Assembly (NCBI GenBank): GCA_000247545.1
Contig: CP003316.1
Coordinates: 467,233 to 531,232 of the forward strand
Source of the DNA: Pyrobaculum oguniense TE7
GTDB taxonomy: Archaea; Thermoproteota; Thermoprotei; Thermoproteales; Thermoproteaceae
Reading direction: 5' to 3'
Length of the DNA: 64,000 bases
Under the pieces are notes generated by a model. The model had not been told where the DNA came from. It searched no databases and saw only the letters and a list, made by a program, of their open reading frames with translations. How positions within the stretch are numbered: the first letter of the stretch is position 1; each line of letters starts with the position of its first letter. Position numbers and translations under genes: made by a program. Shown here piece after piece: positions 5,982-63,900 of this stretch.

Positions 5982-6009
5982 GTATCTATGAGAGGGGGGT
6001 GATTTTTAT

Positions 6010-22324: not shown

Positions 22325-22835
22325 GTTTACATCCGCCTCTTACGCGCCTTTATTCACACCGCGTGTAGGTCGTGCGGCGCGGCGTTTACACGTGTCAAAA
22401 CATCAGCCAAAGCCTCGGTAAGTGTAAACGGCGTTGGGTGTGAAGACGCGGCGTTCTCATACGCCGCGGTTGCGGCGGGCTCTCCGCTTTTTGAGAACGG
22501 TGCTGGGCCGTGCGGCGCGGTGTTTGCTGTCATATTCCGCGTCTTTGCGATTAGTGTAAGCGGCATTGGGTGTGAAAGCGCTCTGTTTACATTCGCTAGC
22601 CTCGCGTCTCTTCACACGTAGTGTGTAAACGGCGCTGGGCGCGGCGCCACAGCCCCTCCGCCTCGCCCCGCTCGCGGCACGCCGTATTGCTTCTATGTCT
22701 TCCCTTTACGCTTCCGTTCTCACACGGCGGAAATACGCCGGCTTCTGTGCAAATTGAGAACGGCGTGTTTAACAGACACGGCCCAAAAACGCGTCGTTCT
22801 CACACGGTTCGCCTACGGCACGTCGTGATATATGA
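22325..22835 (+). repeat. Inverted-repeat array A (about seven degenerate units)
   Basis: Units consist of a 7-base arm, 32 bases and the complementary arm, 39 bases from arm start to arm start. They are joined by 23-base linkers resembling GGCGCTGGGTGTGAAG then GCGCGGC. Arm pairs are GTTTACA/TGTAAAC at 22384/22423 and 22585/22624, and GTTCTCA/TGAGAAC at 22453/22492 and 22716/22755. A weaker unit starts at 22325, and ones at 22522 and 22796 are partly decayed. The arms differ between units but remain complementary inside each unit. The unit at 22453 is nearly the same as one in array B. No gene is credible here; the short open frame is a by-product of the 69-base (23-codon) period. Confidence 0.85.
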
Positions 22836-27466: not shown

Positions 27467-28180
27467 ATGGCCATGAGACCCGTGAAGGTGGTCGTAATCA
27501 TGTCGCTTGACGGCGGCGTTGGGAAAACGACGTTGAGTGCCGTCTTAAGCGTTGCGAAAGGATACACGTTAATTGTCGACATGGACTGGGAGAAGGCCGA
27601 CCTCTCCCAGCTGTTTAGGGCTCCGAAAAAGCCCGGCTGGCTGGCTCCGTTTATCAACGGCGATAAGCCCTACGTCCACCGGGTGAGCCCCTGGCTCTAT
27701 GTGATCCCAGGATACGAGGCGTATGAGATATACCAGCGGGAGGGGGAGGACGTGGTGAAGGACTTCGCCGAGGTTATGCTGGAGTGGGCAGAGGAGGGGC
27801 CTAAGTTCGTGTCTAAGCTCCGCATCCCGGTAGACACTGTGATTATTGACAGTACGGCGGCTTTACCGCTACAGACCCTGGCCAAGCTACAGAAGATGGG
27901 AGCCTACAACATCTTCGTGGCGGATAGGAGGCTGATATCCCGCATCTCAGACGTCAAGTCTGAGCAGTACCGCCAATACATGACCTACTCCGCAATGGCT
28001 GTGGTGAACATGGTGGAGAAAAACGAGGTCAAGATCGCGAAGAAGGTTGTCCCAGTGGCAATAAAGAGGGTGAAGATGTCTAGCGAATACTACGGAGAGG
28101 TGGTGGCCAGAGACGTCCTCAGAGACCCGGAGAACAGGAAAAGCGTTGAGGGCATAGTAATGAGACTGAAGACGTCATGA
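27467..28180 (+). CDS. ParA/MinD-like ATPase of the pilus operon
   Basis: The 237-residue protein has a deviant Walker A (LDGGVGKTTLSAVLS, residues 17-24 core), the strand YTLIVDMDWEKADLSQLF and the Walker B-like VDTVIIDSTAALPL. Such ATPases (CpaE-like) position Tad/type IV pili or partition DNA. The stop overlaps the secretion ATPase start by 4 bases, which favours a pilus role. Confidence 0.85.
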   Translation: MAMRPVKVVVIMSLDGGVGKTTLSAVLSVAKGYTLIVDMDWEKADLSQLFRAPKKPGWLAPFINGDKPYVHRVSPWLYVIPGYEAYEIYQREGEDVVKDFAEVMLEWAEEGPKFVSKLRIPVDTVIIDSTAALPLQTLAKLQKMGAYNIFVADRRLISRISDVKSEQYRQYMTYSAMAVVNMVEKNEVKIAKKVVPVAIKRVKMSSEYYGEVVARDVLRDPENRKSVEGIVMRLKTS

Positions 28181-41504: not shown

Positions 41505-41993
41505 ATGAAGATCATAACCGTTGTCGGCCCCCCGGGCTCGGGGAAAACCCTCGTTGCCACCTCCGTTGCCATATACCTATATCTCGCATCAGCCTCCACC
41601 GTGTATATCGACGCCACGCCTGACAAAACCGGCGCAAAGCTGGTCAAGAACTACGTCCCCCTAGCCGCCGACATACACGAGGCCCGGGACATGGACGCGG
41701 ACTACGCCGTTATCGACGCCCCACCCTACGAGGTCCCCCGCGCCAACTACTACGTTGTAGTCTTGGAACAGCCGGATCTCAAAGTAGTGAGAATTCCAAA
41801 GGAGCCAAACGTGAAGGTGGTAGCCAACAAGCTGACTAGCAAGTGGATGCTGTGGCGGGAGAGGCTGGCAATCCCCTACGACCCCACCATCGCTTGGTCT
41901 ATGCAAGAGGGCTACCCGCCGTTGGCAGTGGCCAATGTCAAGAGTTGGAGAAGAATCCGCAACATAGCCAAGGAGATTGGGGACGCGGTATGA
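41505..41993 (+). CDS. Small P-loop ATPase of the secretion operon (ParA/MinD-like)
   Basis: The 162-residue protein has Walker A VGPPGSGKTLVATSV (8-15), a strand VYIDATPDKTGAKL and the Walker B-like DYAVIDAPPYEV. It is much shorter than normal ParA. It leads the operon containing the VirB4/HerA ATPase (4-base overlaps), so a role in DNA positioning or transfer is likely. Confidence 0.78.
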   Translation: MKIITVVGPPGSGKTLVATSVAIYLYLASASTVYIDATPDKTGAKLVKNYVPLAADIHEARDMDADYAVIDAPPYEVPRANYYVVVLEQPDLKVVRIPKEPNVKVVANKLTSKWMLWRERLAIPYDPTIAWSMQEGYPPLAVANVKSWRRIRNIAKEIGDAV

Positions 41994-42364
41994 ACGAGGT
42001 GTTGAAAGAAATATTGCTAAAACAGAAGCGCGAATTGGAGAGGCTTAAGAAAGAGGGCTGGCGCTTCCACATCCCGCCGCCTAAGCCGGCCAAGTGGAGG
42101 CCTGTGGAGATACCGTTGGTGAAGCTGGCCAAGGCGCTTGACATAACGTACAAGCGGCCGGAGTACTGGGATTTGTGTAGGGATCTAGAGAATCCTCTGA
42201 AGTGTTACCGCCTCTTGGTAAAGAGGCTTAGGGACAAAGAGCTGTTCAGCGCCTTTCTGCAAGCCCTCATGTCCGGCGGCGACGTGAAGACGGTGGTGGA
42301 GCTGGTGGAGAAGGGGGATAAGAAAGGGCTGGAGGAGTATACCTACTCCCGGTTTATGAAATGA
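41990..42364 (+). CDS. Hypothetical helical protein, 124 aa
   Basis: ATG 41990 overlaps the previous stop. It is basic and helical (LKEILLKQKRELERLKKEGWRF) with two cysteines (YWDLCRDLENPLKCY). It is translationally coupled on both sides to the ATPase genes, suggesting an adaptor of the transfer machine. Confidence 0.65.
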   Translation: MNEVLKEILLKQKRELERLKKEGWRFHIPPPKPAKWRPVEIPLVKLAKALDITYKRPEYWDLCRDLENPLKCYRLLVKRLRDKELFSAFLQALMSGGDVKTVVELVEKGDKKGLEEYTYSRFMK

Positions 42365-44313
42365 TAAGGCGGGATCTAATATTCCTGGGGCTGGCCCTGT
42401 TGCTGGCCGGGTTGCTAATGCCGGTGACGCCCGCGGCGGTGCTCCTCGCCGCGGCGGCTCTCTGGCTGTGGGGGGAGCTCGCGGTGGTGTGGATATATGC
42501 CCGCTGGAAACCGGTAGAGCCGGTGAGAGTGCCGGTGGGCGAGCTCCCCGCCCACGTGGCCGCCTACAACCCGAGAAACAAGATGTATTTCTGGATGTGG
42601 AGAGTGGAGCCGAACCGCTCAGTCCTCGGCTTCTCCTCTCTGGAGGTGGTGCACGAGTTTTACAACAAGTTGGCTCTGAGGAGGGATGAGCAGCTGGCCT
42701 ATGTCTACCTCTACGGGGAGAAGTTCATCATATTCTCCTCCCGGCGCTACGACACCGGCCGCGTGAGGGATGTGGAGGAGATACTCAGAGAGTTCTTCGT
42801 CCCGCAGCGCGTGACCCCGTGGATAGGCATAGGGAGGCCAGTGGATAGGAGGATTTGGCTCTCAACGCTTTGGGTTCTGCTATACGCCGCCTTCGCCGGG
42901 GCGGCGGCGCTTCTGCTGTTGCCTATTTGGGCTTGGATTGTCCACAACTTCGTGAAGTACTACCGCGAGTCCTACATGATGTTCACCCTCACGCATATGC
43001 CCCACACAGACACCTTCTCGCTGTCGCGGGAGATGCTTGAGCTGGCCGCCGCCACCGACGCCAAGACAATCGCCAGGATGGAGAAGTGGGCTGTCGCCTT
43101 CGCCGACAGGCCCTCTGTGGAAATTAAGAAGAAGTTTGCCAAGATTTACGAGGGGAGGGATACCGGTAAGCGTTTGGTGAGGTTGGCGGAGTACAAGGAG
43201 CTGTTGGAGAGGGTCGCGGCGTTTAACGAGCGTCCCATATTCCTATTCGTCTACGCCGAGGACGACATCCCCTCCATGGACGTGGCGCGCGACTACTTCG
43301 CCACGGCGGACTTTTGGCTCCGGCGGAGCTACGTGCGGGCTCTCACCGGTGACCTCACCAGGTTCCCAATATTCTACGGCGGGACTCTGCTGGGGGCCCA
43401 GCGGCTTGTGGAACTCGCCAAGGACATCTTCGGCAAGCCCGTCACAGTCCCCCTTGACTCGTTGCCGACGGTACACGGGGTCATAATCGGTCCTTCTGGT
43501 ATGGGGAAGAGCTGGACTGTTGCCAGCTGGTTGTACCAGCTGTCTAAGTACGTCGACGTCGTCGTTATAGATCCGCATGGGGACTACTACAAGTGGGCGG
43601 AGAAGGTGGGAGCGGAGGTGGTGCCGATACCCCACGTACTGCCCCGCGACTTGCCTGAGGTCTTGCGGCGCTCCATGTGGTTCCGTAGGCTTATCGAGGG
43701 CAAGTACGGCCGCCTGGACGGGGCCTCGCCGGAAGCGGTGTTAACAGAGGAGGCGGCGGCGCTCGGGATTAGGCCGGAGTATCAAGACTTCCGGCTGGGC
43801 AACATCGTCCTCGACCTCACGCCTCTCAAAAAGGACACAGAGGCCCAAGCATTCTGGGCCGTGGTTATGATGATATACCTTATCAACAAGCTGTTGGAAG
43901 AGAAGGTAGAGCAGCTGAAGACCATAATCGTCTTCGACGAGGCTCGCCTCCTCTCGCAACACGGCACAGCGAGGTACAGCGAGGTGTTGCTGGACATGCT
44001 CCGCGACCTCGTGTTCGGAGGGAGGAAGTACGGCTTCGCCGTGTGGTTCATAGTACAGCTGGAGACCCAACTGCCGTGGGACATCATACGATCGGCTTCT
44101 GTCCAGCTCTTCCTCGGCGGCGCCAGGGACTACGTCCTCCCGCTGGCCCGCACGGTCGAGCTGGACAACGATGACGTGGCATACTTGCTCAGCGCCATAA
44201 CGCCGAGAGAGGCGGCCTTAAGCGGGAGGCCCTACGCCATGGGGATCCTGCGCGTTAAGCCCAGAGACCACAAATACCACGTCAAGATATACCTAGACCC
44301 CGAGCTGAAATGA
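42361..44313 (+). CDS. VirB4/HerA-family ATPase with membrane helices (CedB/TedB-like)
   Basis: The 650-residue protein has an N-terminal helix pair (about 5-45), a second pair (about 165-200), then a HerA/VirB4 motor: Walker A IGPSGMGKSWTVASW near residue 377, VVVIDPHGDYYKW, Walker B TIIVFDEARLL near residue 522 and the arginine/sensor region FGGRKYGFAVWFIVQ. Membrane-tethered HerA-like ATPases of this type power DNA import in the Ced (Sulfolobales) and Ted (Thermoproteales) systems. Together with the VirB2-like and VirB6-like genes at 50.6-52 kb it makes a minimal type IV transfer machine. Confidence 0.88.
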   Translation: MIRRDLIFLGLALLLAGLLMPVTPAAVLLAAAALWLWGELAVVWIYARWKPVEPVRVPVGELPAHVAAYNPRNKMYFWMWRVEPNRSVLGFSSLEVVHEFYNKLALRRDEQLAYVYLYGEKFIIFSSRRYDTGRVRDVEEILREFFVPQRVTPWIGIGRPVDRRIWLSTLWVLLYAAFAGAAALLLLPIWAWIVHNFVKYYRESYMMFTLTHMPHTDTFSLSREMLELAAATDAKTIARMEKWAVAFADRPSVEIKKKFAKIYEGRDTGKRLVRLAEYKELLERVAAFNERPIFLFVYAEDDIPSMDVARDYFATADFWLRRSYVRALTGDLTRFPIFYGGTLLGAQRLVELAKDIFGKPVTVPLDSLPTVHGVIIGPSGMGKSWTVASWLYQLSKYVDVVVIDPHGDYYKWAEKVGAEVVPIPHVLPRDLPEVLRRSMWFRRLIEGKYGRLDGASPEAVLTEEAAALGIRPEYQDFRLGNIVLDLTPLKKDTEAQAFWAVVMMIYLINKLLEEKVEQLKTIIVFDEARLLSQHGTARYSEVLLDMLRDLVFGGRKYGFAVWFIVQLETQLPWDIIRSASVQLFLGGARDYVLPLARTVELDNDDVAYLLSAITPREAALSGRPYAMGILRVKPRDHKYHVKIYLDPELK

Positions 44314-48421: not shown

Positions 48422-49363
48422 ATGCCCAAGCGCCCTCCTTCCGACGTGCCTGAGGAGTGCCGCTGGGCCTTTGACATATTCTCGGGGGAGAAGGCAGAGA
48501 GAGCTCTCCAGCTGTGCATGAGGGGCTACACGCTTAGGAAGATGGCTCTCATGACGCCGATGGAGATAGCCGACTTGCTCGGCTATGAAGACGTCACCGA
48601 CGCCGAGAAGGCGGCTAGGCGGCTGAGAGAAGCCGTCGGGATAAACGGTAAGCCCATGACAATCGCCGACCTCAAGAAGAGGCAGGACAGAGTGCTTAAA
48701 ACCGGCGTTGAGGAGTTCGACGAGAAGACCCCGTGGAAGGGCGTAAGGTTCGGCCTGGTATACGGGTTCGCGGGGGAATATGGGACTGGCAAGTCGTTGT
48801 TCGCCAAGCAGGTATCGGCGGTAGCTTTGTCGCAAGGCCTCAAGGTGGCCTACTTCGACACGGAGGGGACGTTCGACACGGACAATTCGACCATAGACGC
48901 CTTGTTCAAGAGATTCAACGTGTCGGAAGACGCCTACACCCGGCTTTTGATATACCGCCCCGTCGACTCCTTCCAGCTGATAGAGCAACTTAAGGAGCTC
49001 CCAGAGGACGTGGACGTGGTTATCGTCGATTCCCTAGTGGCGCCTTTCCGCGCCGAATACAGGGGGAGGCAGTTGCTGGCGCCGAGGCAACAGGCAATGC
49101 TCTACACCCTCAACATACTGCTAAGGCTGGCTAGGCTGGGGAAGCTTGCCATCGTGACTGACCAGGTAATGGACGTCCCCGCCTTCTTCGCCGTCAAGAG
49201 GCCGGCTGGGGGAAACGTCCTGCTCCACACTGTCCAAGCGCTTTTCATGATGGAGCGGCCGTCTAAGCAGAAGCTAGAGGGCGTCATGTGGCCTCTGGAC
49301 GTCCCCGGCATGGCTCCCTCTACAGAAATTCGATACAAGATAAGGGAGGATGGCCTCTACTAA
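48422..49363 (+). CDS. RadA/RecA-family recombinase
   Basis: The 313-residue protein has a small N-terminal helical domain (about 1-85), then a RecA core: the substrate-like FDEKTPWKG, Walker A FAGEYGTGKSLFAKQV near 118, VAYFDTEGTF, Walker B VDVVIVDSLVAPFRAEYRGRQLLAPRQQ (RadA-like signature), and the L2-type VPAFFAVKRPAGGNVL. It probably promotes strand exchange of transferred or replicating element DNA. The stop is 6 bases before the first arm of repeat array B. Confidence 0.9.
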   Translation: MPKRPPSDVPEECRWAFDIFSGEKAERALQLCMRGYTLRKMALMTPMEIADLLGYEDVTDAEKAARRLREAVGINGKPMTIADLKKRQDRVLKTGVEEFDEKTPWKGVRFGLVYGFAGEYGTGKSLFAKQVSAVALSQGLKVAYFDTEGTFDTDNSTIDALFKRFNVSEDAYTRLLIYRPVDSFQLIEQLKELPEDVDVVIVDSLVAPFRAEYRGRQLLAPRQQAMLYTLNILLRLARLGKLAIVTDQVMDVPAFFAVKRPAGGNVLLHTVQALFMMERPSKQKLEGVMWPLDVPGMAPSTEIRYKIREDGLY

Positions 49364-49369
49364 CACGCC

Positions 49370-49622
49370 GTTCTCAATCGGCATTTTTACCGCTTTTGAG
49401 GCGGTTTTTGAGAACAGCGCTGGGTATGAAGGCGCTCCGTTCTCACACGCCGCGGTTGCGGCGCGTCTTCCGCTTTATGAGAACAGCGGTGGGTGTTTAA
49501 GCACGCCGTTCTCATCCGGCGTGAAGTCCGCCGTATTTTCGGCGTTTGAGAACGGGGCTGGGTCTTTAGGCGCGGCGTTCTCAATCCCCGACGGCCTCGG
49601 TGTGTTTGCGCCTTTTGAGAAC
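49370..49622 (+). repeat. Inverted-repeat array B (four units, exact 69-bp period)
   Basis: GTTCTCA begins at 49370, 49439, 49508 and 49577; TGAGAAC begins at 49409, 49478, 49547 and 49616. Both series have an exact 69-base period, giving units of 7-base arm, 32 bases and complementary arm, joined by 23-base linkers of the type RGCGCTGGGTNT then GAAGGCGCGGC. Several 32-base interiors contain an inner hairpin (CCGC...GCGG, GCCGC...GCGGC, GCCG...CGGC). The second unit closely matches the unit at 22453 in array A. A 94-codon frame across it reflects the 23-codon period. Confidence 0.92.
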
Positions 49623-49626
49623 GGTT

Positions 49627-49971
49627 ATGCCTAGCTACAAGCTGTTAGAGGCTGGGGATCTGCCTGGCGGCATATCCTACTACCTCTGGGAGAGGGACGG
49701 CTGGCTGTACGTGACTCTCAGGCGGGGCCCCATTCGGAGAACTGTGTACATGGGCCGCCTTGAAGAGGCCGCGGAGACGCCGGCCGAGCCACAAGACGAC
49801 TGCATGCGATTGCTCAAGGAGCTGGCGGAGGCCTTCGAGGAGGCGGTGGAGCTGGCGCGAAGGGCGGCAAGGGAGGCGCAGACAAGGGAGGAGATGAGGG
49901 AGGCGCTGAAGGAGCTGTCGTATAGGCCGCGGGCGCTGGAGGAGGCCCTGGAGCTCTTGGGCCGTGAGTAG
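49627..49971 (+). CDS. Hypothetical protein with long C-terminal helix, 114 aa
   Basis: ATG 49627 lies just after the last arm of array B. A short beta domain (SYYLWERDGWLYVTLRRGPIRRTVYMGRL) is followed by an Ala/Glu/Arg coiled-coil helix. It is followed at once by the HTH gene. Unknown function. Confidence 0.65.
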   Translation: MPSYKLLEAGDLPGGISYYLWERDGWLYVTLRRGPIRRTVYMGRLEEAAETPAEPQDDCMRLLKELAEAFEEAVELARRAAREAQTREEMREALKELSYRPRALEEALELLGRE

Positions 49972-49973
49972 AC

Positions 49974-50288
49974 ATGCCTAGGCGTTGCAACTGCCGGGAG
50001 GCGGCTAGGGCGCTGGTGGCGGCCGGCTACTCCTATTCCCAAGTGGCGAAGATGCTGGGCGTCTCTGTAAAGGCGGTGAAGAAGTGGGCCGGGGAGCCTC
50101 CCGAGGGGGGCGCCAAGGCGAGGCGGGGAGTGGCGGCTCGGGGAGCGCAACTCCCGGCCGGGCCGAGCGCTATGGCTGAGAGGTCAACCGAGGCGGCTCA
50201 AGAGGCGAGGGAGGCGGCGCCTCTAAGCGTCGCCGAGAACCAGTGGGTGAGGCTGTTAAGACAACTAAAAGAACAAAAACAGCGCTAA
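49974..50288 (+). CDS. Helix-turn-helix protein, 104 aa
   Basis: An N-terminal HTH (EAARALVAAGYSYSQVAKMLGVSVKAVKKWAG) precedes a low-complexity Ala/Gly middle and a short C-terminal helix. It lies between repeat array B and the 78-bp tandem repeat, so either repeat could be its binding site. Confidence 0.75.
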   Translation: MPRRCNCREAARALVAAGYSYSQVAKMLGVSVKAVKKWAGEPPEGGAKARRGVAARGAQLPAGPSAMAERSTEAAQEAREAAPLSVAENQWVRLLRQLKEQKQR

Positions 50289-50530
50289 GTTCTTGGGTTG
50301 TAAAGAGGAACTTGGTCAGCGTATTTTTCCTCTAATTTTTGCAAAGAGGAACAAATTCGTCGTTAAGTTCTTGGAATATAAAAGGTAACAAAACCGGCGT
50401 ATTTTTCCTCTAATTTTTGTAAAGAGGAATAAAACCGGCGGGAAGTTCTTGGGATATTTGTCAAGAGGAGTAAACACGCCGCCTTGTATCTGGAATTTTT
50501 GTAAAGAGGAAAAAAGCTGGCGGGAAGTTC
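50286..50530 (+). repeat. 78-bp AT-rich tandem repeat with internal palindromes
   Basis: AAGTTCTTGG starts at 50286, 50364 and 50442 (exactly 78 bases apart), and AAGTTCT again at 50524. Inside, TTCCTCT and AGAGGAA form perfect inverted pairs with an 11-base loop at 50326-50350 and 50404-50428; AGAGGAA recurs at 50303 and 50504. The stretch 50289-50587 has no gene and is strikingly AT-rich. It could be an origin, a transfer origin or a multi-operator promoter for the transfer genes. Confidence 0.88.
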
Positions 50531-50554
50531 TAGCGGAGGTTAGAAGGCCTTAAT

Positions 50555-50568
50555 TAAGGTTTATCCAC
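50555..50568 (+). promoter_or_regulatory. Element promoter box before VirB2-like gene
   Basis: AAGGTTTATCCACC lies 33 bases before ATG 50588 and heads the transcript that includes the giant gene. Confidence 0.75.
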
Positions 50569-50587: not shown

Positions 50588-51058
50588 ATGCCCAACAAAC
50601 CCACAAACCAAAAGAAGAAGGCGTTGGCGGTGGCGGCGCTGGTGTTGCTGGTGCTGGCCGTGGAGGTGTACGCCCAGCAACAAGACGTCTATGAGAGAGT
50701 GAGAGAGGCGGTGGACGAAAACATCGTGAGTCCAGTAGTGAGTGGTGTAAGGGCTCTGGCGTATATCTGGGCCGTGGCCTTCTGGGTCGCCGTCATTCTC
50801 TTGGCACTCTACGCCTTCATCATGTTAAAGGCGGGGCCAACGACGTTTAGCCGCTGGTCTGGCTTTGTTGAGATGATAGACAGATACAAGCTGTTCCTGA
50901 TCGGCATCATAGCGGTGCCGCTGGCCATCGCGGCTCTGTTGACAGGAGTAGCCGCTGTCAGCAACCAAGAGGTGGATGCTTGGGGGATTGCAAATCAATT
51001 CGTGTCCTTTCTGTTCCAGCCCTTCAACGACGTGGCGAGGGCGCTTCTAGGGCAGTAA
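50588..51058 (+). CDS. VirB2/CedA1/TedC-like transfer pilin
   Basis: The 156-residue protein has a basic N-terminus and signal-like helix ending VYAQQQ (about 12-33), a short amphipathic helix, then two membrane helices (about 57-80 and 101-123) joined by a positively charged loop (KAGPTTFSRWSGFVEMIDRYK). A signal plus two helices is the VirB2/TrbC plan, and crenarchaeal Ced/Ted pilins have the same layout. Its TAA stop overlaps the next ATG. Assignment rests on plan and neighbours, not on a sequence signature. Confidence 0.72.
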   Translation: MPNKPTNQKKKALAVAALVLLVLAVEVYAQQQDVYERVREAVDENIVSPVVSGVRALAYIWAVAFWVAVILLALYAFIMLKAGPTTFSRWSGFVEMIDRYKLFLIGIIAVPLAIAALLTGVAAVSNQEVDAWGIANQFVSFLFQPFNDVARALLGQ

Positions 51059-51969
51059 TGACGGCGGTAACAACACCCTTTTTTTCCATACTCGCCTCTT
51101 CCTCCTCGGACTTCTGGCCCACCAGCCCCCTCCTCCTCGCCGTTTTGTCCCCAGTCCTCGCGATTTTCCTCTACGGCCTATACCTGTGGACCATCGGCAC
51201 TCCCCAACAGAGGGAGCACGCAGTGGACGTGTGGATTAGAGGCGTAGTCGCCGGCGCGCTGGCCGCGTCGGTGTTCTTCATTCCGCCGCTGATCGGCACG
51301 GCGATAATAGACATCTACACAGCCGCTGGCGGAGAGGCCGGCAACTGCCTGGCCCCGCTGAGAGTGGACTTCGACCCCAACTTGGCTAGATATGTCCACG
51401 GAGTCGAAAACGCAATGAAGTGCGCCATCGAAGTGTATGAGCAAACATACCGCCGCATCGCCGACACCTACACCAACCTCTTCCAGACGTCGACAGTGAG
51501 CGGAATATTCGCGGTCACCTCCTCGTTGTCCATGGGCATCTTCCAAATTGCCCTGCCCTTCTCGGGCGCCGCCTCCGGCGCCCTCATCGCCTTGACGGCG
51601 GCTAAAGTGGCGGCATACGTCGCAATCGCCTTCGCCGCCTTAGCGGGGTTGGGGGCCGTTTTAATCGCCACGGAGAGGATGCAGACGTTGGGTGCCGTGA
51701 TAGTGGCCGGGGCCATGGCCATGCCGCCTGTGCTGGCAGGTCTGGCAGACGCCATAGAGCCGCTGGCAGAGAAGATACCCCACGCCCAGGGCGTGTTGGG
51801 GGCGATTTCGAACTTGAACTTCTTCGACTGGGGCAAGTACGTATACGGCACCGGCGCAGTGGCGGAGATATCGGCGTACACAGCGCTAGCGCTGTCGGTG
51901 ATGGCCGCCGCAGTTGCGGCCATTAGCTATGCATTAAGCAGAGTGCCTCAGCACCTATCCGTAGAGTAA
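51058..51969 (+). CDS. VirB6/CedA-like polytopic membrane protein
   Basis: ATG 51058 overlaps the pilin stop; the longer frame lies inside the pilin gene. The 303-residue protein has membrane segments near 25-45, 60-90, 145-215 and 270-295, including an Ala-rich cluster (VAAYVAIAFAALAGLGAVLI). One external loop carries cysteines (GNCLAPL, MKCAIEV). This fits the channel subunit of Ced/Ted or conjugation systems. The TAATG stop/start overlap couples it to the giant gene. Confidence 0.75.
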   Translation: MTAVTTPFFSILASSSSDFWPTSPLLLAVLSPVLAIFLYGLYLWTIGTPQQREHAVDVWIRGVVAGALAASVFFIPPLIGTAIIDIYTAAGGEAGNCLAPLRVDFDPNLARYVHGVENAMKCAIEVYEQTYRRIADTYTNLFQTSTVSGIFAVTSSLSMGIFQIALPFSGAASGALIALTAAKVAAYVAIAFAALAGLGAVLIATERMQTLGAVIVAGAMAMPPVLAGLADAIEPLAEKIPHAQGVLGAISNLNFFDWGKYVYGTGAVAEISAYTALALSVMAAAVAAISYALSRVPQHLSVE

Positions 51970-54900
51970 TGGACATAGACATAACAATCTTCATTTTTTT
52001 CACCGGCGTCCTCTCCTCTCTCTACCTCCTATTTTTCCGGGGTCGTGAGGACTGGTACATCCCCCTCGCCGGCTCCATTTTAGTACTGCTTGTGCCCCAC
52101 GTGACCTGCCTAGTCTTCAGCTGGCATATCCCCTTTGCGGCCTGCCCCGTCTACACCTACGGCGTATACGACCTCGAGGAACAATTACGGAAGGCGGCTG
52201 AGGCCACTGAGGCCGTTGCCAACACAGCGCTGAGCCTAGCCGCGGAGTTCGCCAAGGCCATTGGCGCTTTATCGGCCGCCATGACTGCGGCGATGACAAT
52301 TTTGGCCATTGCAAGCGGCGGCCTTACGGCGCTTCTGGGCGGGGCGTTGGACTTGCTACGCATTATGAACTACGCAAACCCCGCGTGGCAGATCGCGGTG
52401 TCTGCCTACAACGTGGCCATGGGGATAGGGATGTCCTACCACGTGCTGGCCGTGTTGGCCAAGGCGGCTGAGCACTTCGTGCCTTTGTTGCTGGCGGCGG
52501 GGATGGCGTTGATGCCGCTTCCAAGAGTGAGGGGCTTCGGCGCAATGATATTCGCCTTGGGGCTGTTGCTGTACGTAGCCGCCATGGCTGGGCTACACTT
52601 CTCTGGGCCTACTATGGAAATTCTCAAGTGGCTGAACTCCACGAACAAGTGGATAGGCGATATGCCCAAGCCCTCCTTCAACTTCTCAGGCTACGGCTTC
52701 TTGGCAGTCCAAGGCGGAGGCATGTTCTTCGCCAGCTACGAGACACATGTAGACAACGCCACCGTGCAGAGGGCCTTGGAAGAATTAAGAAAATTAGGAA
52801 TTAACTACACCGGCTTGGCCATTACGCCGGGGAGGGACTACATCGCCGGCGCCGTGTTGACACCCATCTACGGCGGCTCTAACATAACGTGGCGTGGGCT
52901 GAACTCCTCTAGCCCGTACATCGTCTTCGCGTGGCTAGACGTGCCGATCAACGGCACAGACAGGATTCAGAGGAGACCGTGGGGCTTTGACTACTCCCTC
53001 ATCCAGTTGCCGGACAACGTCACAGTGAGTACTCCAAGCGGCAACATATCGCTAAGGGAATGGGGGCTTAGGGTGGCTGAGGCTGAGAGGGCGCTTATCG
53101 GCAACTTCACTCCCCTGTGGATAATAGATGCCGGTCCTCAGCAGTTTTGGCGCCTGCTTTTTGTAGAAGTGAACGCGACTATCTCCCTACGCAACCAGAC
53201 GCTGTACAACGGCACAGAGAGGGGCGTTGTGGGGGTGTGGGGCTGGATTGTGCCGCCGGATGAGGAGAGGTGCGAGGCGGCCGGCGCCGCGGTGGAGTGC
53301 GGCGCGGCCGACGTCACTGTTAAGCCCGGCTTATTGAAGTATGAAATTGAGGCCAACGCGACTACGTGGGTTAGGCCTATCGCCGAGCGGCTGACGTCGA
53401 GGTTCAACATGACGCTGGCCGAGGCGCCTAGACCTGTCAGAGACGGCGAGGAAAGGTTCTACACGTGGCAGGAGGTGTGCTACTACACGTGTTGTTCGAC
53501 ATGCTGTGACCAGAGCGGTTGCCGCACTTGCTGTAGCACCTGCTCCTACTACCGCACGGTGTGGGAGGAGCCCGTAATTTTCAAAATCCTCAGAGACGGG
53601 GAGTATGAAAGACAAGGCATCTTGTACGACCGGCCGTGGGTGCCGGAGGCGCCGTTCAACTTCACATTCCGCGTCGGGTACGTACACCGCGATTGGGAAG
53701 TGCGGAAGGAGCTTAGGGCGTCGGCGCCCGACACCGGCAGATGTCGCGAAATCCCCGGCACCCGCCGCCTTTACAAAAAGGTGGTCTTCTGGGATGTCCA
53801 GCCGTCCTTCTTCATGATATACGGCTTTGTTTGGGCCTCCTCAGTCGAGGCGGCGGTAGACGACATGCGCCGCCCACTGCCGGACTATTACGACGGCGGG
53901 CCTGCTGAGGAGGACGGCGCCGAGGTGATAAATCTGCTGAGAGGCGCGGAGCACGACCAGTATTGTAAAGTGGCTTACTACGGCGCCGCGCAGCCCAACT
54001 GGCAGTTGGTGCCTCTCGCCGTTAGGAACATGACGTCCATAAACAGGATGTACGACGCCTACCTCTTGACGCAAGGCAACTACACCGAGGTGTGGGGGAG
54101 GGGGGCCGTTGCGATTTCAAACGGCTCCCAGTTTGTCATTGAAGGGGTCAACAGATTGATTGAAGCCTATAAGCCGAAGCCGTTTATCCCAATGCCGGAG
54201 GCCGCGCCGACAAACTACACAATGACGCAGGTCACGGTGGAGTGTGTAAAATATGAGTGGCGTGGTAAGTCGTTGGCGACTGGCTCTCTAACCATTACTC
54301 CCGGCGCCCAGGTCTGGCTACACAACTACACATGGCTCGCTTCGCGTCTCTCGCTGGAATTCGTGAACAAGTCGGCGGAGATGTGGCTGTGGATTCTTCA
54401 AAACCCGCCTCCCAAGCCGCCTGAGAACTTAACGCGCTGGGGGATCGTGCCGGGCTGGCTCAACTCCACGTGGCTGTCGACGCCGCATGCGTTTTTCGGC
54501 GTCACCGCCACGGCGGCGGCTGGCATGTTGTTGTGGTACGCCGCGTCGCTACTGGCGGCGTGGATGTCCATATACCCCCAGATCCTCCTGGCATTCCTCT
54601 CGGTGTTCGCAATCTTTGAGGCCCTCAGCTGGCTGTTGGGCTTCCCGTCGCCCGGCATCCACTTGATGAGATTTGTCATGAATACGTTAGAGGATTTGGC
54701 ATTCTGGTACCAAGTCCGCCTACTTATCCGGGGCCGGGTATTCGCCAGGGCTCTACGCTTTTTGAAATCGCCTATGAGGGCCTTCGCTATACTGGCTGTT
54801 AGGAAGCTGTACTACAAGGGCTACCTCCGGCTTAGGGCTAAGGAGCGCTGGAAGATAGAGTCTATGCTGGGCCTCCGCTACGACGAGAGGGTGAGGGAGC

Positions 54901-57900
54901 AGATAGAGAAGAGGGTGGAGGAGAAGCTCACCGGCAAAAGGAGGCTGGAGAGGCTGGCTGAAAAGGCTAAGGAATACGCCGAGAGAGCCGCCGCGGCCGC
55001 CGCCACTGCGGCCGTAAAGACGGGCATGGCGACGTACGAGGCGGCTAAGGCCGCGTACAAGGCGGCTAAGACTGTCCACGAATACACGGAGGGCGACATT
55101 GTCCACTTGCTGAGGCGTCTGTCCCCCGCTGTCGACCACAAGCTGGAGGCCTTTCTGGAGTACATGGCTAAGCGCTACCCCGCCGTCTACCACCTATTCC
55201 TTGCACATCTAGACGAGAAGCCTAGGTGGATCTCAGCGCTGGATTTGCCGCGGCTTAGGATGCTGGCGGAGGCCGGGAAGATCAAGTGGGAGGTGTATCA
55301 GAAGGCCCGCAACCTAGTGGAGTACTACTACGCGCTTAGGGCGTACGAGAAGTTCAAGGCAATTACCGAAAAGCTGTCGGAGGAGAAGGTGTACGAGATG
55401 GCGATTAAGACGGCGCAAGAGGCCGCGGAGAGGTCGGAAAAGGCCCTACGCGCTTTGATGTACGACCTCGCGAGGGGCGTCGCGGAGGAGGAGATCCTTA
55501 GGCGCATAAAGGCGGTGGTCCAGCCGATAGAGGAGGTGTACCACCGCGGCGTATTTGCCAAGCTGACACAGATAGTGGGGATGGCGCTTCAAGAGAGGCC
55601 GCCTGAAACGCCTCAAGAGCTGGCCAAGTTGCTCATAGAAAGGCGCGACGAGGTGTTGCAGAGGGCGCCCATAATTGCCGAGGAGTGGAGGCAGTATTGG
55701 TCCGCGAGGGAAGTGCCGTATCCGGCGAGAGAGAGGATGGAGGCAATATTAGCGGAGTTCGCCCGCGTGGAAATAGCGAGTGAGCTGGCCGAGCTTAGGA
55801 CAGCGGCGCTGGCGAGGAGGGCGGCGTACCTGGCGCTGGAGTATGAACAGTTGAGAAAGGCGCTTGAGGCCAAGCTGGGGACGCCGGAGGAGCAGGCGCT
55901 TAGGGGAAGGATGCAGGAGCTTGAGAGACAGATGAGGGGCGTCGTGGAGGAGGCGAGGAGGATGATGGCCGATAGGCGGGTTTCGCTACAGGCGTGGGAG
56001 GCCGTGGAGAGGGGCGGGCAGTACGCCGTGGAGGTTAGAAATCTAGAATTTAGAATTAAAGATGTTAGGTGGCTGGAGAGGGTCTTCGACGTCGTTAAGA
56101 TTGAGAGGATAGAGCGCGGAGGCGCCGTCGAGGAGGCACTGTCAATAAACGAGAAGGCGGCGAGGAAGGTGCTGGAGGAGACGTGGCGCCTCTACCACGA
56201 CTTCGGCGAGAAGTACGTCTGGCTACGCCACGGCCCCGAGGAGCGCATCTACGCCGTGCCCAAGGCTGGAGTACAAGAAGTAGAACAAGCACTTGACAAG
56301 GCATTGCGCGTATACGGCCAGCACGGGAGGGAGGCGGCGGTTGCCGAATTCCGCCGCGCCGTTGAGGAGGCCAAGCAGTTCTACGCCTCGCGTGGCGGGG
56401 TAAGCGCTGTGGAGAACATAGAGGCGCTGGAGAGGAGGCTGGTTAAGCTTCTGGAGGAGCTCCCGGCTAAGCCCTCCGACGTCTTTGCCGCCTATGCGGA
56501 GGCGGCCCGGGAGGAGGTGGCGGGGGCGCTGCCGGGCCTGAGGGAGGCGGCGCTGGCTAGGCGGATAGCCCTCTTGGCTTTGGAGCACGGCGCTTTGCAG
56601 AGGGCGGTGGAGGAGAAGCTGGGCACTCCCGAGGAGCAGGCGCTGAGGGCTAGGCTGGAGGAGGTGGGGCGCCGGCTGAGGGGCGCGGTGGAGGAGGCCA
56701 AGGCGTACGGCCGAGGCGGCCTCTTGGAAAAGGCGCTTAGGGCGGCGGAGCCCGGCGTCGACGCGGAGAGGGCGAGGGAGGCGCTGGAGGCGGCTGAGGC
56801 GGCGTTGAGGGAGGCCGCGTCTAGGTACGGGTGGCTTCTGGAAGTGAGGGAGGCCGTGGAGCGCGCGCTTAGGGCGTATTCAGAGGGCGGGAGGGAGGCG
56901 GCTGTGGAGGAATTCCGCAGAGCCGTCGAGGAGGTTAAACAACGCCGCCCCGCCGACGCGGAGAGGATAGAGGCTGTGGAGAGGAGAATTGTCGAGGTAC
57001 TGCAAGATCTACCAGAGAGGCCTCTCTCCGCGGCGCCGAGGGAGGAGGTGGCGGAGAGGCTGGCGTTGGTGGAGAGGACACGCCAAGCGTTGTCCGACCC
57101 AGACGCCGCGTTTAGGGCCGTCCAGCTGGCTAGAGAGGCGGATGAAATCACTGTGATCAGCGCCCTGAGGCTAAGCGAGGAGGCGGAGGCGGTTAGGGCC
57201 TTCGTGCAGAGGGCCAAGTCCATTGACTACGCCGCGTTGGCGGGGGAGGCGAATAGGGCCGTAGACGACTTGTCTAGGCAGGTCTACGCGGCGTTGAAGG
57301 CAATTGACGACTACGACAAGTTCAAGGCCGAGGCGGCCCTCGCCCAAGACCGGTGGCTCAAGGCCCTCTACGAGGCGGATGCTGAAAGGGCGCTTCGCGC
57401 GGTAAAGGCAGAGCTTGAGCTGGCCAGACAACACCAGAAGCGGGCTGAGGAGGCCGTCTCCCGCGTGAAGGAGGTGGAGGAGGTCAAGCCGCCGTCTTTC
57501 GCCGGCTTGGACTTCTCGCAAGATGTCAAGATCACAAAAAGCGAGTACTTCCTACCCACAGACGCGGCGTTGTACGCCTTGGCGATTGCCTTTACAAGGC
57601 GGCTCGACGCGGTCAAGAGGGCAGCTACTCCCGAGGAGCGGCGCAAGGCAGTGGCCGAGTTAGCCGCTGTGACCGAGTTGCTGAGGGAATACCCGAGGGA
57701 GAGGGTGGCTATGGCGTTGAAGGAGGCGGAGAGGCCGATATTCTACAAGGCCGGCAAGGTCGAGGTCAACACGGAGAAGGCGGAGAAGTTGCTGGCGGCG
57801 CTGGGATACGCCGCAATTGCCGCCTTAGGCCGGCCTGAGTCCTACGCCGCCTCGGTGATGCTGGAGGAGCTGGCCAAGGAGCTGGGAGTGCCGAAAGACG

Positions 57901-60900
57901 CCTTGCTGAAGGCCGCCTCCATCAGCCCCGCGCTGGCAGAGGCGGTCAAGGCGGTTAGAGAACTGGCGTCTGTCGACAAGAAGTTCGCCAAGTTGGTGGA
58001 GGAGGCCAAGACGGAGAGGGATTTGGAGAAGATTAGGGCGTACCTCAGGGCGGAGGCCAAGGCCCTTAGGGCGGCCTCCGAGCTGGGCGAGTTTTTGAAA
58101 TCGCCTTCTGTAGAGGCCAACCTCGGTTATCTCATATTCGCCGCGGATAGGTTGCAGTTGAGGGATGTCAAGAGGGTGCTGGAGCTGATTGGGAGGGCCA
58201 AGGGCGAGTTGTCGTTTTTCGAAGAGCGCTACTTCAACGTAGTATACGAGCAACTATTGCCGTTGCTGGGCTGGCGTGCCGAGAGGATGCTCCTACGCGC
58301 TCCGCCGGCCGTGTACGTCCTCAACCGCATGGGCGCCGACCTGGCCAAGGATGTGTTCTCGCGGTACCGCGGCTTCGAGGCCTACGGCTCGGAGCTGAGG
58401 GACGTGGTGCCGCGTGTAGACCTGCCCTTGAGCGTCGGGATGCCGGTATCCCTCAAGCCCAAGTTCACGCAGTATCCGCAACGCGTCACGCGCTACGTGG
58501 CCGACTGGAGCGACTCCGCCCTCGCCTCGGGGATTAGGCGCTACTACCAGACTGAGGAGGGGAGGAGGCATAGGGCGTTGGCCGAGGGGCTGGCCGTGGC
58601 GGCCGGGGCGGCCGCGCTTAGGAAGGCGGCGGAGCGGCTTCTGGAAGAGGCGCAGAGGCGCGACAGCGACGCCCTCGCGCTTATCGCATACCTCACCGCG
58701 GCTAGGGCGGCGAGGGAGGAGCTGAGGCTGGCTGGTATCTTCATGAGGGCCGGCGCAAGGGTCCACGCCGACGCCGTGAGGAGGAGGGCTGGGGAGCTCT
58801 ACGCAACGGCGCTGGAGAAGGCGGTGGAGATCCTCCGCAGGCACTACGACGAGAAGAGTGGCATCAGCCAGCTCCTTGTAGACGGCTTAGGGCTCTATTT
58901 GGGCAGGCTGGCCAACGTGTTGAAGAGGGCCAAGACCGAGGAGGATATCAGAGAAGCCGCCGAAAAACTAGCGGGCCGCATGCACCTCATGCGCGTTGCG
59001 GCTGTGGCGGAGGCGGCTGGGCTGGAGGAGCTGAGGGCGCCGCTGGCCCACGCCATGGAGGCTGTTAGGACATATCTGAAGCTGGAGCACTGGCTGTCCA
59101 CAAAGAGGCCCGCGGCGGCGCCCGGAGAGCTTAGGGCCGAGGCAATTCAGGCTCTAGACGCCCCGCTCCCCAAGGTCGAGAGGAGAGTGATGGAGGAGGC
59201 AGTCGCTCGCTCCGTCCGCCTGTGGCTGGCGGAGGAGGCCGGACGGCTGGCGAGGCTGGCCCAGTGGCTGGAAGAGCCATATTTGCGCGCGAAGGACAAG
59301 AGGCATAGGGAGGACATAAGGCGCATCCGCGAAGTTGTCGAGGAGGCGTGGAAAAACGCCGTTAGGAAACTCGCAGAGGAGGCCAAGGCGGCGGCGGAGT
59401 TCTCGCCTTCGGCGCTTCAAGAGCTAAAGCTGGTGGCGGAGAGCTGGGCCGGCGCTGGGCACCACCGCTACCCCGCCCACAGGCTGGAGGAGGCGGCCCC
59501 GCCGGGGGAGGGGGCGGAGAGGCTGTACAAGTACATAGGGATGCGGATATTACAGGAGATTAGAGATGTACAACCCGCCTCAAGGCCCGAGGCTGAGCTC
59601 TACGAGAGGCTTCCGCAACGCCTTAGGGAGCTGGCGGAGGGCGAGGTGAAGAACGTGGAGATGGCGCTTATTAGGGAGGGCTACTACGACGAGTTGCTGA
59701 GGCCGGCGTATAAGTGGCTGTATTTACCGTTCGAGCGGGAGGACCCGAGGCCTCTCTTTGAGCGGGTTGCCGAGAGGGCGGCGGAGCTGGCCAAAAGACA
59801 CGGCGTAGACCCAACGCCTTTGGTGCAAGCCGCAGAGGAGCTGAAGAGGTCGACGATTAGGGAACTGCCCAAGGCCGCGGAGAGGGCCGGCGGCGCCTTG
59901 GCTGAGGTTGTCTCGAAAGTGGTGGAGGTTGTTGCTAGGAGGAGGGCGGAGGAGCTGAGGGAGAGGGGCGTGGACGTCTCTCACGACGCCGGCTTTCTGC
60001 TGTCGGTGGCTAAGAGGATAATAAGAAAGATTTCGCGCGGGCTGGACGAGGAGGCGCTGGCCGTGGACGCCGTCTACAAGTGGGTGTCGAGGACGGCGGA
60101 GGAGGTGAATAGGAACATGGACGTGTTGGAGAAGGCATATTTCGAATTCGCCGTGCTTAAGACTAAGAACAGAGAGGTGGCTGAGGCCTACGCGAGGCGG
60201 TTCAGCATACGCCCAGCCGCGGCGGATGAATACGACCCCGTCGAGGGGGTCTTCAAGCGCCGCGAGGTCTACTTGATTATACACCAAAGTCTGCAGGCCG
60301 CGGTGTCCAAGGCCCTGGACTGGCTGGCAGGGGAGCTGAGGGACAAAGAGGAGGTGCCTGTTTCGCACATGTTTGTGGGGCCGCCGGAGCTTGGCTTCAT
60401 CTTGGCGGAGAGGATGAGGCTGGCGTTTGCCAGGGAGGGCCGATACTACAAGTACTTCCAGTTCTACGACCTTGAGTCAGAGGTCAAGGCTATTGCGGAG
60501 CGTTTGGTGGAGATGGCGGCGGAGGAGGCGGCTGGGAGGCCGGTGTTTTGGGTGTTGCGCTACGAGCACCTACGCCGCTTTGCGCCTCTAATCGCCAAGA
60601 TATACGGCGCTGAGTACGACCCGTTGCGGGACGCCGGATACGTGCACAAGGCGGACTTCGCCATCGGCTACGCCGTCATGAAGGAGCTTCTGAAGTTGCT
60701 GAGGGAGAGGGTGAGGAGGGGCGAGGCTAAGCCGTGGGAGTGGTCTACTCACAAAGACTTGGCTGAGGGGATGGCCAAGGCGCTGGAGGAGGCGGTGGGG
60801 AGGGAGTTCGCCAAGCCCGGCGCCGCCCAGACTGCCCTAGAGGGGGTGAAGTACGCCATGAGGTACCTAGCCGGAGAGGCGCCGCACCCGTCGGGGGTGG

Positions 60901-63900
60901 CCAGAGAGGCGTACGACGCGGCCGTGAGGCTGTTCTCGCTGATAGCCGGAGTGAAGGAGGAGGAGCTTTGGCGCAAGACGCTGAAGCTCAAGGAGACCAA
61001 CCCAGGACAATTCGACAGCCTAGTAGAGCTGGCCGAGGAGAGGCTTGGGCTGAGGAGGAGAGAGGAGGAGAGGGAGAAGAGGCCCGAAAAGCCGGAGAGG
61101 AAGCCCGAGGAGGTAGTCAAGAAGCAAGAGGAGGAGAAGCCCGGAGAGAGGAGGCCGGAGGCCAAGAGGCCGCAAGAGGAGGAGAAGCCGGCGGCTGAGA
61201 AGGCTGGGGAGAAGCCGGCCGCCGCGCAGAGGCCGTCTGTTAAGCCCGCCAAGTCTGAGGAGAGGCTAGAGGCCGCCGGGCAGAGGGCGGCCGCGGAGGC
61301 GCCGCGCGGCTTGATCCCGGAGGGCCACGAAGGGGTTAAGGCCGTGCTGTGGCTTGTGAGGGCGAGCGGGGCGGAGCTGGAGGACGCGTCCCAGCTGGTG
61401 AGGGCCGCGGCCTCTAAGCTCAAGGAGAAGTACAAGGCCAAGGTGGGGAGGATGGAGCCCGCCCTGGCGGAGCTGGCGGAGAAGGCGCTGGAGGAGGCCT
61501 ACTACCTAGTGGAGGTCGCGGCCCGGTCAAGGTCGGCGCTGGAGAAGCTACGCGTAGCATTTGAGGTTGGCGAAAACGCCGTCTTCGGCCTAAGGCCGGA
61601 GACGCCGGAGGAGGCAGACGCGGCTAAGATACTGGCCGACTTGGCCAAGCTGGTGAGGCAGGCGGAGGAGGAGCTCGGCGCTGGGCTGAGGGTGTGGGGA
61701 TTGGCACAGCAGTTCGCCCTGGCGCTGATAGACCGGGTGGAGGCGGAGTACGACAGAGTGCTGAAGGCCGTAACGACGATTGAGAGGGCCCTTATCCCGG
61801 CGGCTGTGTCCGCAATGGGCGTCGTGGGGGCAATTGCGACACACGACGTTGTCCTCGGCGCCGCGGCCCCAATCGCCGCCGCCATCGCGCTGGCCAAGGC
61901 AGACCAGCTTAAAGAGGCCGCCAAGAAGGCTAAGGAGGCGGCGGAGAGGATATACGAGGCGGCGAGGGAGCTGTGGGAAGCCGCCAAGGTAACGCTACAG
62001 CGGATATACGAGGTCGTGGTCGAGGCAATCGCGAGGGCGCTGGACTACGTAAAGGCGCATTGGTTCATATTCGCGGCCGCGGCGGCCGGCCTCATTGCTT
62101 GGGCCACGGCGCAACAGCTGGACTTCCAGCTGTGGATGGAGCACGTTGCTAAACTCGCTCCCGTCATTGTCGGCGCGCCGAAGTTCAAGGAGTTTAAGCC
62201 GGCGCTGGAGGGGGAGGCGCCCGACTTGCTTAAGGCGGCGGAGAGGGCCCTGGCGTGGAGGGACTTCAAATCTATAAAGGCCTTCTTGGACGAGGGCATG
62301 AAGGCGGTCTTAAAGATGCAGGACTTGAAAAAGGTGGTGGAGAACGTGAACAAGTACGGCGCAGGGAAGGGGCTAAGGCCGGAGCACGCCGTCGATGTTT
62401 TGGCCTTGGTGGAGGCGGGCTTGAAGAGGCTGGGAAAGCCGCCGTCTCTCGCGGAGGCGGCTGAAAGGCTGGCTAAAGGCGAGAGGGTAGAGCTGGACGT
62501 CAACGAGGTCGTGGAGTACATAAAGAGGATCCGCGACGTGGCGTATCAGCTGAGGCTCTTGTTTAGGCACATAGCGGAGAACGCCGAGAGGTACGCGAGA
62601 AATAAGCGAGAGGCCGAGGCGATGAAAAGAGCGTTTACCGTGACCGAGGCGGCTGAGGAATTGGCCGAGGCGGCGAGCAAGGAGTTTCGCAAGCTCGGCG
62701 ATGCCACCCTCGCTGATAAGGCTGTGGCCTTTTTCGAGAGCTTGGCGCTCGGCACTGCTTGGAGCCGCGTAGTGCTAAACGCCATGGAGAAGGGGAAGGC
62801 GTACGAAGCCCTCGTGTGGGCGCCGACAACAGCGGCTGGTAAATACGGCGTGGGGAGGGAGGCGGTGGACATGTGGGAGGGCTTGCTGACGCGCGCCGCA
62901 GTGTGGCTCGCCGGGAGGGGAGTGGACAAGGCCGAGTTTAGGCGCAAGGGCAGCCAAGTGGAGATAATCGTCAACGGCGAAGCCGTCGCCGTCGTGGAGA
63001 TAGAGGAAAGCGAGGTTATGGGGATTGTCTACCGCGCCAAGGGGAAGTGGGTCAAGGAGGAGGCCATGCGGCAGTTGAAGCTCGCGAGGGAGCTGGCCGA
63101 GGCCATAAAGACAAAGCCGGAGGAGTACGCCCTCCTCGCCCTCCTGGCCACAGACGGGAGCTACGTAGCAGAAAATCATGTAGTCCTAGCCGGCACGACC
63201 TCTGTGGCCCAGGCGGCTTTGTACATAAAGCTCGGCTTTAAGGTCAAATACGCCGGCTACGGGAATTTGACCGAGGAGGGCTTAAAGCCAGTGTTCGAGG
63301 CATGGCGCATAGACGAGAAGATAGTGAAGAGAGTTAAGGAGCATCTGGCCGCGGCGGAAGCGCTGTTCAAGGACCCAGGAAGGGCCGAGTTGCTCTACAA
63401 GGCCCTAGACCTCCTCCAAGAGATTCGCTGGAACAGCGCCAAGGCGAAGAGGAAGGCGGCCGAGAGGATAACGACACTTCTCTTCCACCTGAGACTAGGC
63501 GGCGGGAAGGTCTGCTTGGCGAATTGCCAATTCGGCGAGCCAACGCTGACGGTTAAACGCGAGGCGTACGCCCGCGTCGTTGCGCCGCTCCTCTACTACA
63601 TAGCGAGGGAGGTGCCCGGGTGGGAGGGGGAGAAGGCGAGGGAGGAGGTCATGAAGTTCTTGGCCCACGCCGTCCTCTACGATGGGGGCGTGGAGCCGGA
63701 CCAAGTATACCTCACAGTGGGCAACTTCGGCGCGAAAAGCGAGGAGAAACAGCTCCCCATGGATATATACGACAAAATCGCTCTGTACGTAATCCTCGCC
63801 GCTAAATACGGCGTAGGGGTCAAAGGGATATCCGTAAGAGAAGGCAAGGCGCAGATACGCCTTAAGCCGGAATACGCCGCGTGGGTCTTCGCGGCTGAGT

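Follow-up and report, generated by a model that had tools for sequence, protein, structure and literature searches.

Tandem arrays of operators placed beside the gene of their regulator are a known arrangement, and iterated dyads next to the gene of a small DNA-binding protein also resemble centromeres and relaxosome sites. The closest described loci are the Ted loci of the Thermoproteales, in which a tedC-like pilin gene is accompanied by TedA-like, VirB4-like and MinD/ParA-like genes (PMC9905601). The same work describes the tedC family, states that recognisable relaxases are absent from archaeal conjugative elements and presents Ted as a possible DNA importer. Nothing was found in print on the control of Ted loci, the passages of PMC9905601 on these loci included. 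Those passages mention neither arrays nor the two small, putatively DNA-binding genes reported below (the word 'repeat' occurs once, outside them), and no description of arrays in Ted loci was found in the open-access main texts searched.

We analysed a stretch of 64,000 nucleotides of Pyrobaculum oguniense TE7 (G000:C1:467233-531232; genome of 2,452,920 bases, chromosome of 2,436,033), hereafter the window, to which all coordinates refer. Two arrays of inverted half-sites, array 1 and array 2, flank a pair of small genes. As in tandem operator arrays, a putative regulator gene lies beside iterated inverted half-sites near a promoter-like element; unlike the usual ones, array 2 is long, with 13 half-sites over 250 bp, and the regulator-operator pair is a predicted one. 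Like the Cbp1/Cren7 coating of CRISPR arrays (PMC10883916), the locus combines a small HTH protein with regularly arrayed sites, but its units are dyads without spacers. The likeness to Pyrobaculum CRISPR leaders (PMC3396285) concerns array 1, as the protein encoded next to it has homologues there and its linker GAACRGCGCTGGGT resembles a doublet found in leaders. In contrast, the leader doublet is mostly 54–55 bp apart, neither array contains spacers, and array 2 has no similarity to leaders. Array 2 is best read as a tandem operator array forming a putative regulator-operator pair. If array 2 is such an operator array, private to this locus and paired with a regulator of its own, it would provide a concrete handle on when these archaea make the DNA-transfer pilus. 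The more unusual lead is array 1 with its CRISPR-associated protein family.

Anatomy of array 2

Array 2 (50286–50535, no strand assigned) is built of 13 alternating inverted half-sites, 7 leftward and 6 rightward according to patterns picked by eye. The leftward half-sites read AAGTTCTTGG or TTTTTCCTCT and the rightward ones are TGTAAAGAGGAA-like. The basic unit is a pair of half-sites with a period of ∼41 bp (once ∼37 bp), the steps measuring 14–18.5 bp inside a pair and 22.5–23.5 bp from pair to pair, and the spacers contain CGGCG. The half-sites are better conserved than the spacers and their alternation is regular. A first-pass annotation of the sequence had described a 78-bp tandem repeat with three starts exactly 78 bases apart. 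This spacing is real, as GTTCTTGG starts at 50289, 50367 and 50445 (offsets 18, 96 and 174 from 50271). The repeat unit has to be revised: only two full 78-bp copies are present (50271 and 50349, 77% alike), each unit corresponds to two of the ∼41-bp half-units, and an extra copy of the 60-nt core lies 82 bases further, not 78. Overall, the units are 63–78% alike. The perfect TTCCTCT/AGAGGAA pairs with 11-base loops were recovered at 50327–50351 and 50405–50429; as the mean number of TTCCTCT-N11-AGAGGAA in 100 dinucleotide shuffles of the window was 0.00, these two pairs are not expected by chance. The reported AT-richness was likewise borne out, with a G+C content of 38% in 50286–50530 versus 57% window-wide. 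Tandem Repeats Finder (TRF) gave this region the top score of the window (119, period 41). The exact core TTGTAAAGAGGAA occurs three times in the genome, each time in array 2; one mismatch adds one occurrence in array 2 and two elsewhere in the genome.

Two other identities were considered for array 2 and rejected. With copies only 60–78% alike and no spacers, it is not a CRISPR array. A relation to CRISPR leaders was rejected as well: TGTAAAGAGG can be found in certain leaders and a direct repeat contains AAAGAGGA, and the similarity scores of 7–10 were within the controls (9 leaders compared with 400 genomic control pieces, of which 54 scored as high in the best case).

Genes upstream and downstream of array 2

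As the first-pass annotation stated, an HTH gene lies immediately upstream. It encodes a 104-aa protein (49974–50288, plus strand; Pfam HTH_23, E 1.7e-5), and the first half-site of array 2 overlaps its stop codon TAA (50286–50288), so that a DNA-binding domain is encoded right beside the array. The structural model (pLDDT 64.6, which is low; four-row alignment) comprises a homeodomain-like HTH with helices within residues 6–38, a low-confidence linker and a C-terminal helix carrying a conserved N-x-W-V-x-x-L-R motif (alignment A3). Homologues in genomes G004 and G002 share 33–38% identity with the first row of the alignment. Among 81 genomes of the class, strong profile matches (E below 1e-19) were obtained only in G000, G002 and G004, weaker ones (E 2e-5 and above) mostly spanning the HTH alone, and no relative was found in the genome_contigs, viral_contigs or phages collections. 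Foldseek searches of the PDB with the models of the HTH protein and of the neighbouring 114-aa protein, both low-confidence, gave no match at E≤0.001 for either. For the HTH model, the solved CRISPR repeat-binding protein 2lvs ranked fifth among many HTH folds at a non-significant E of 0.41. Compared with solved structures, the HTH profile listed no Cbp1 chain up to E 1. It matched 8vd6 (E 7.8e-15), a 'CAP REPEAT' protein of repeated HTH-like units, which says only that the predicted domain is HTH-like. The HTH protein is a probable ligand of array 2.

A probable TATA element (AAGGTTTATCC, 50560–50566, plus strand, identified by eye) lies 24 bp past the end of array 2 and ∼21 bp before the ATG of a tedC-like pilin gene (50588–51058, plus strand), a distance suggesting a leaderless tedC transcript. 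AAGGTTTTTCC or a near variant of it is present upstream of tedC at two G004 loci, one G002 locus and a third G004 locus, and a looser form of this element was found in G010 and G018. The pilin gene has tedC-like homologues in other Pyrobaculum, and tedC matches at E≤1e-3 were obtained in 19 of 61 genomes, its own included. The gene had been called VirB2-like; it is a tedC homologue, and its product matches the Pfam TrbC/VirB2 family only weakly (E 0.0015, below the curated cut-off). A tedA-like membrane protein gene (51058–51969, plus strand) overlaps the tedC stop codon; it is so called on position, hydrophobicity and a gene order like that given in PMC9905601, with no profile behind the name. 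It is followed by a giant ORF of at least 4010 aa (51969–63998, plus strand), which is open at the window end, has no Pfam family above cut-off and is probably part of the tedC-tedA transcription unit. By eye, the final portion of this ORF is similar to the PaREP2b-like ORFs found near other dyad copies.

Further upstream, a TedB-like ATPase of the VirB4/HerA kind is encoded at 42361–44313 (plus strand; Pfam DUF87, E 3.7e-10), far below the cut-offs of the VirB4 and CedB models; it had no relatives among 72,556 plasmid records. MinD/ParA-like genes are found at 27467–28180 and, with a weak Pfam match, at 41505–41993. A RadA/Rad51-like ATPase gene (48422–49363, plus strand; Pfam Rad51, E 1.1e-18; NCBIfam RadA, E 2.8e-31, under its equivalog cut-off) sits directly before array 1. 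As a tedC homologue and predicted VirB4-like and MinD/ParA-like genes occur in one locus, the region is, judged from its predicted genes, a Ted locus in the sense given to the term in the Ted passages of PMC9905601. In the regions listed in PMC3558965, 485–530 kb (roughly 17.8–62.8 kb of the window) is a paREP2 region present in P. oguniense and absent from P. arsenaticum. The three inversions listed there for the strain have no end points at array 1 or 2, and invertible DNA was rejected as an identity for the arrays.

Array 2 in related genomes

By DNA similarity, array 2 was found at one place in its own genome and in 0 of 60 relatives; no copy was thus detected apart from transfer and HTH genes. 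As a DNA sequence, then, the repeat does not accompany other ted-like loci; as a layout with another half-site it does so in two genomes. An HTH homologue, alternating inverted sites and then tedC follow one another at the G004 contig junction and in G002 (contig C2), with TGTCCAC/GTGGACA replacing the TTCCTCT/AGAGGAA of G000 and a pair period of ∼31–33 bp. Between a rightward half-site and the leftward one after it, the step is 19.5–22.5 bp in G004 versus the 22.5–23.5 bp of G000. The G004 chromosome numbering begins inside the array between the HTH gene and tedC (L003 and L024 are the contig ends), which may reflect chance, an assembly effect or a guessed origin.

Another G004 locus (2335 kb) retains a shortened array but carries a deletion of the HTH core. 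The sister HTH gene of L026 (898–1131) has an internal deletion of the HTH core and keeps the C-terminal N-x-W motif, which is altered in the shortened sister HTH gene of L059 (about 5980–6200, minus strand). In the G002-C1 locus, tedC is preceded by a shortened HTH ORF and array 2 is missing, which breaks a strict pairing of HTH gene and array; as its HTH region is altered, this locus may be a decayed copy. Overall, an array of this type is present at 4 of the 5 loci with an HTH gene or remnant and at none of the 18 other tedC loci, a co-occurrence that amounts to few independent events with one exception, since only three genomes are informative and the loci are related.

Self-similarity of the 330 bp preceding tedC was scored at 23 loci. 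At most 3 of 200 shuffles scored as high in G000, L005, L006, L024 and L022, compared with 7/200 for L026 and 10/200 for L007; the signal before the L006 tedC is explained by an array 1 remnant. In L022 (G014), the repetitive stretch before the tedC-like match (1/200) may be coding. No array was detected by this test upstream of tedC at most of the other Ted loci, indicating that Ted does not need the array.

Array 1

Array 1 (49364–49634, no strand assigned) occupies the whole interval from the RadA-like gene to the 114-aa protein gene with four 69-bp units, each GTTCTCA-N32-TGAGAAC, and the self-similarity scan of the window ranked it first (49321–49636). Its half-site centres alternate by 39/30 bp in G000 and L056, and within 1 bp of these values in L052, L053, L054 and L055 (one site was missed in L055). 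The pattern GTTCTCA-N22..45-TGAGAAC was found at 8 places in G000, 4 in G002 and 3 in G004, with a gap of N32 at every place, and nowhere in the remaining 10 genomes of the search; the reversed control pattern gave 0 matches in the own genome and elsewhere matched only in G010, once per strand. Of 45 genomes from the order, 4 contained matches to a model of the unit, and the match in G011 was weak (E 0.004). The half-sites fall into discrete types (GTTCTCA, GTTCCTCA and GTTTACA), and both arms of a unit switch together: variable positions changed jointly in 6 cells on each side and never on one side only. In an alignment of 22 of the 27 units (five of 47–48 bp were left out), the outer arms are paired in 99.4% of cells and the supposed inner stem in 63.6%. 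The joint changes and the poor inner stem fit discrete dyads recognised by a protein. An ORF (49350–49634) crosses array 1, but half-site steps of 68–70 bp in sister loci shift its frame. As the conserved letters are those of the dyads, we rejected a coding role and read array 1 as non-coding. More dyads of this type, with GTTTACA/TGTAAAC and GTTCTCA/TGAGAAC mixed, lie in the same island at 22378–22767 (no strand assigned). Single 46-bp dyads are present in L051 at 4210–4267 and 11201–11258 (686 and 693 kb), within a different paREP2 region that P. arsenaticum also lacks.

Putative function of array 2

We hold it somewhat more probable than improbable that array 2 is a cooperative operator array through which the adjacent HTH protein controls tedC. 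The evidence consists of the HTH domain in the abutting gene, the TATA-like element shared with tedC genes of other Pyrobaculum, the recurrence of the layout, the exact core private to the locus, the arm changes of array 1 and the co-occurrence of HTH gene and array. The HTH protein would bind the alternating half-sites, probably as dimers meeting along the DNA, and the bound protein would set the activity of the promoter ∼24 bp past the array, which would drive the Ted island genes for the tedC pilin, TedA and the giant ORF. That the sites are many and regular suggests cooperative filling, and many weak sites could give a steep, switch-like response, though a centromere or a chromatin-like coat would be compatible with these features too. 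Array 1 may play the same role for the gene pair of the 114-aa and HTH proteins, which would link both arrays in a two-step circuit. Among the three candidates offered by the first-pass annotation (transfer origin, replication origin or multi-operator control region), the last is the best supported, as the HTH gene abuts the array, a promoter-like element is near and the layout recurs in two genomes; positive evidence emerged for neither origin.

The likeness of iterated dyads to centromeres and relaxosome sites, the MinD/ParA-like genes of the island and its location in the 485–530 kb region absent from P. arsenaticum (PMC3558965) would suit an oriT-like site, at which the transfer machine processes DNA in cis, or a partition centromere; the HTH protein would bind such a site and pass it to the ParA/MinD-like or VirB4-like ATPases. 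We regard this as unlikely: Pfam scans of the window ORFs revealed no relaxase or Rep family, PMC9905601 states that recognisable relaxases are absent from archaeal conjugative elements and describes Ted as a possible DNA importer, the TedB-like ATPase has no plasmid relatives in the records searched and most Ted loci have no array 2. A shade less likely is a chromatin-like coat of small proteins which, instead of switching a promoter, would insulate against read-through and cryptic transcription. Regular arrays do fill intergenic gaps, the 114-aa family is mostly found beside CRISPR arrays, Cbp1 with Cren7 coats the CRISPR arrays of Sulfolobales (PMC10883916), and 2lvs appears among the non-significant matches of the HTH model; yet both arrays are short and end near promoter-like elements or gene starts, and homeodomain-like HTH matches are unspecific. 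The AT-rich iterated sites, and the G004 numbering that starts within its array, could point to a replication origin, which is the least probable of the alternatives, as Pfam scans of the window ORFs gave no Orc1/Cdc6 family, the array exists at two loci of G004, and the skew shows no sharp switch at 50.3 kb in the window besides the strand bias of the giant gene.

Array 2 could also be transcribed into a structured RNA of tandem hairpins, since array 2 has a folding z-score of −3.3 and array 1 one of −8.7, with 0 shuffles as stable. Inverted repeats necessarily fold better than their shuffles, so this was not counted as evidence for RNA. Moreover, no Rfam match at gathering score was obtained across the window, the half-site pairs of array 1 change in discrete types without one-sided intermediates, the inner stem is not conserved, and the tedC transcript probably begins past array 2, all of which make such an RNA quite improbable. 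The same low probability is given to a decaying repeat without present function: the units are not very alike and the array has partly or wholly disappeared from sister loci, but the half-sites are kept over the spacers, the alternation is regular and the layout exists with different sequences in three genomes.

The 114-aa protein family and CRISPR leaders

The 114-aa protein gene (49627–49971, plus strand) has its ATG 4–5 bp past the last half-site of array 1 and ends 2 bp before the HTH gene. Its product is predicted to fold into four beta strands followed by helices (model pLDDT 67.5, which is low; four-row alignment). A four-row profile retrieved 6 strong copies in the order (one in G000, three in G002 and two in G004; E below 1e-48), all 6 with array 1 directly upstream. 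It also retrieved distant members in G004 (765 kb, E 2.4e-5; 2234 kb, 3.5e-5; 276 kb, 3.1e-4) and G008 (0.0038), all adjoining CRISPR arrays. The member at 765 kb overlaps a cas4-like gene that follows cas1- and cas2-like genes (named by eye on their translations). A nine-row profile including distant members gave 33 matches in 15 of 81 genomes, of which 26 had E below 1e-18: the 6 Ted-island copies and 20 others. A script detected a CRISPR array in the locus for 17 of these 20 (at L172 the script picked up a neighbouring array, and the leader belonging to the gene itself was identified separately) and at none of the 6 Ted-island copies. The three remaining members are in G010, where a leader, promoter and one repeat are present, and in G006 (42 kb) and G000 (941 kb), both inside cas regions according to a table in PMC3396285. 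Pfam and PADLOC scans of two members returned no match that would name the family, and none was found in viral_contigs.

Leaders beside the family often hold two GAAYGGCG sites, mostly 54–55 bp apart. CTGGGT comes after the first of them, and array 1 of G000 shows this too. Compared with the 9 leaders, array 1 scored 14 against that of G004 (0/400 control pieces as high), 12 against those of G003 and G009 (9/400) and 11 against G000b (32/400), and was not significant against the remaining 5 of the 9. The likeness is convincing for one of nine leaders and borderline for two to three more, so that the motif link alone is suggestive. The stronger link of array 1 to CRISPR is the predicted protein homology, and that of array 2 runs solely via neighbouring array 1 and the 114-aa protein.

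It is conceivable, if unlikely, that Ted islands and Pyrobaculum CRISPR leaders share a putative DNA-binding module made of the small beta-sheet protein and iterated sites (array 1 in the islands, the GAAYGGCG doublet in the leaders), which in the islands would form, with the HTH protein and array 2, a circuit coupling DNA uptake or exchange to CRISPR array expression or spacer acquisition, protecting the incoming DNA or immunising with it. Should members of the 114-aa family bind leaders, the family would become a candidate archaeal factor for adaptation or leader function, and its additional presence in Ted islands would connect immunity with the exchange of DNA.

Within the Thermoproteaceae, small proteins of this family are encoded beside CRISPR leaders and cas1-cas2-cas4-like genes at L103, L108, L109, L110, L142, L144-L150, L155-L158, L162-L164, L166 and L168-L177. 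L058 (G004:268000-282000) is a Ted locus with an array 1 remnant directly before tedC and no HTH gene, in which a CRISPR array and its small-protein gene start about 1 kb past the tedA-like gene.
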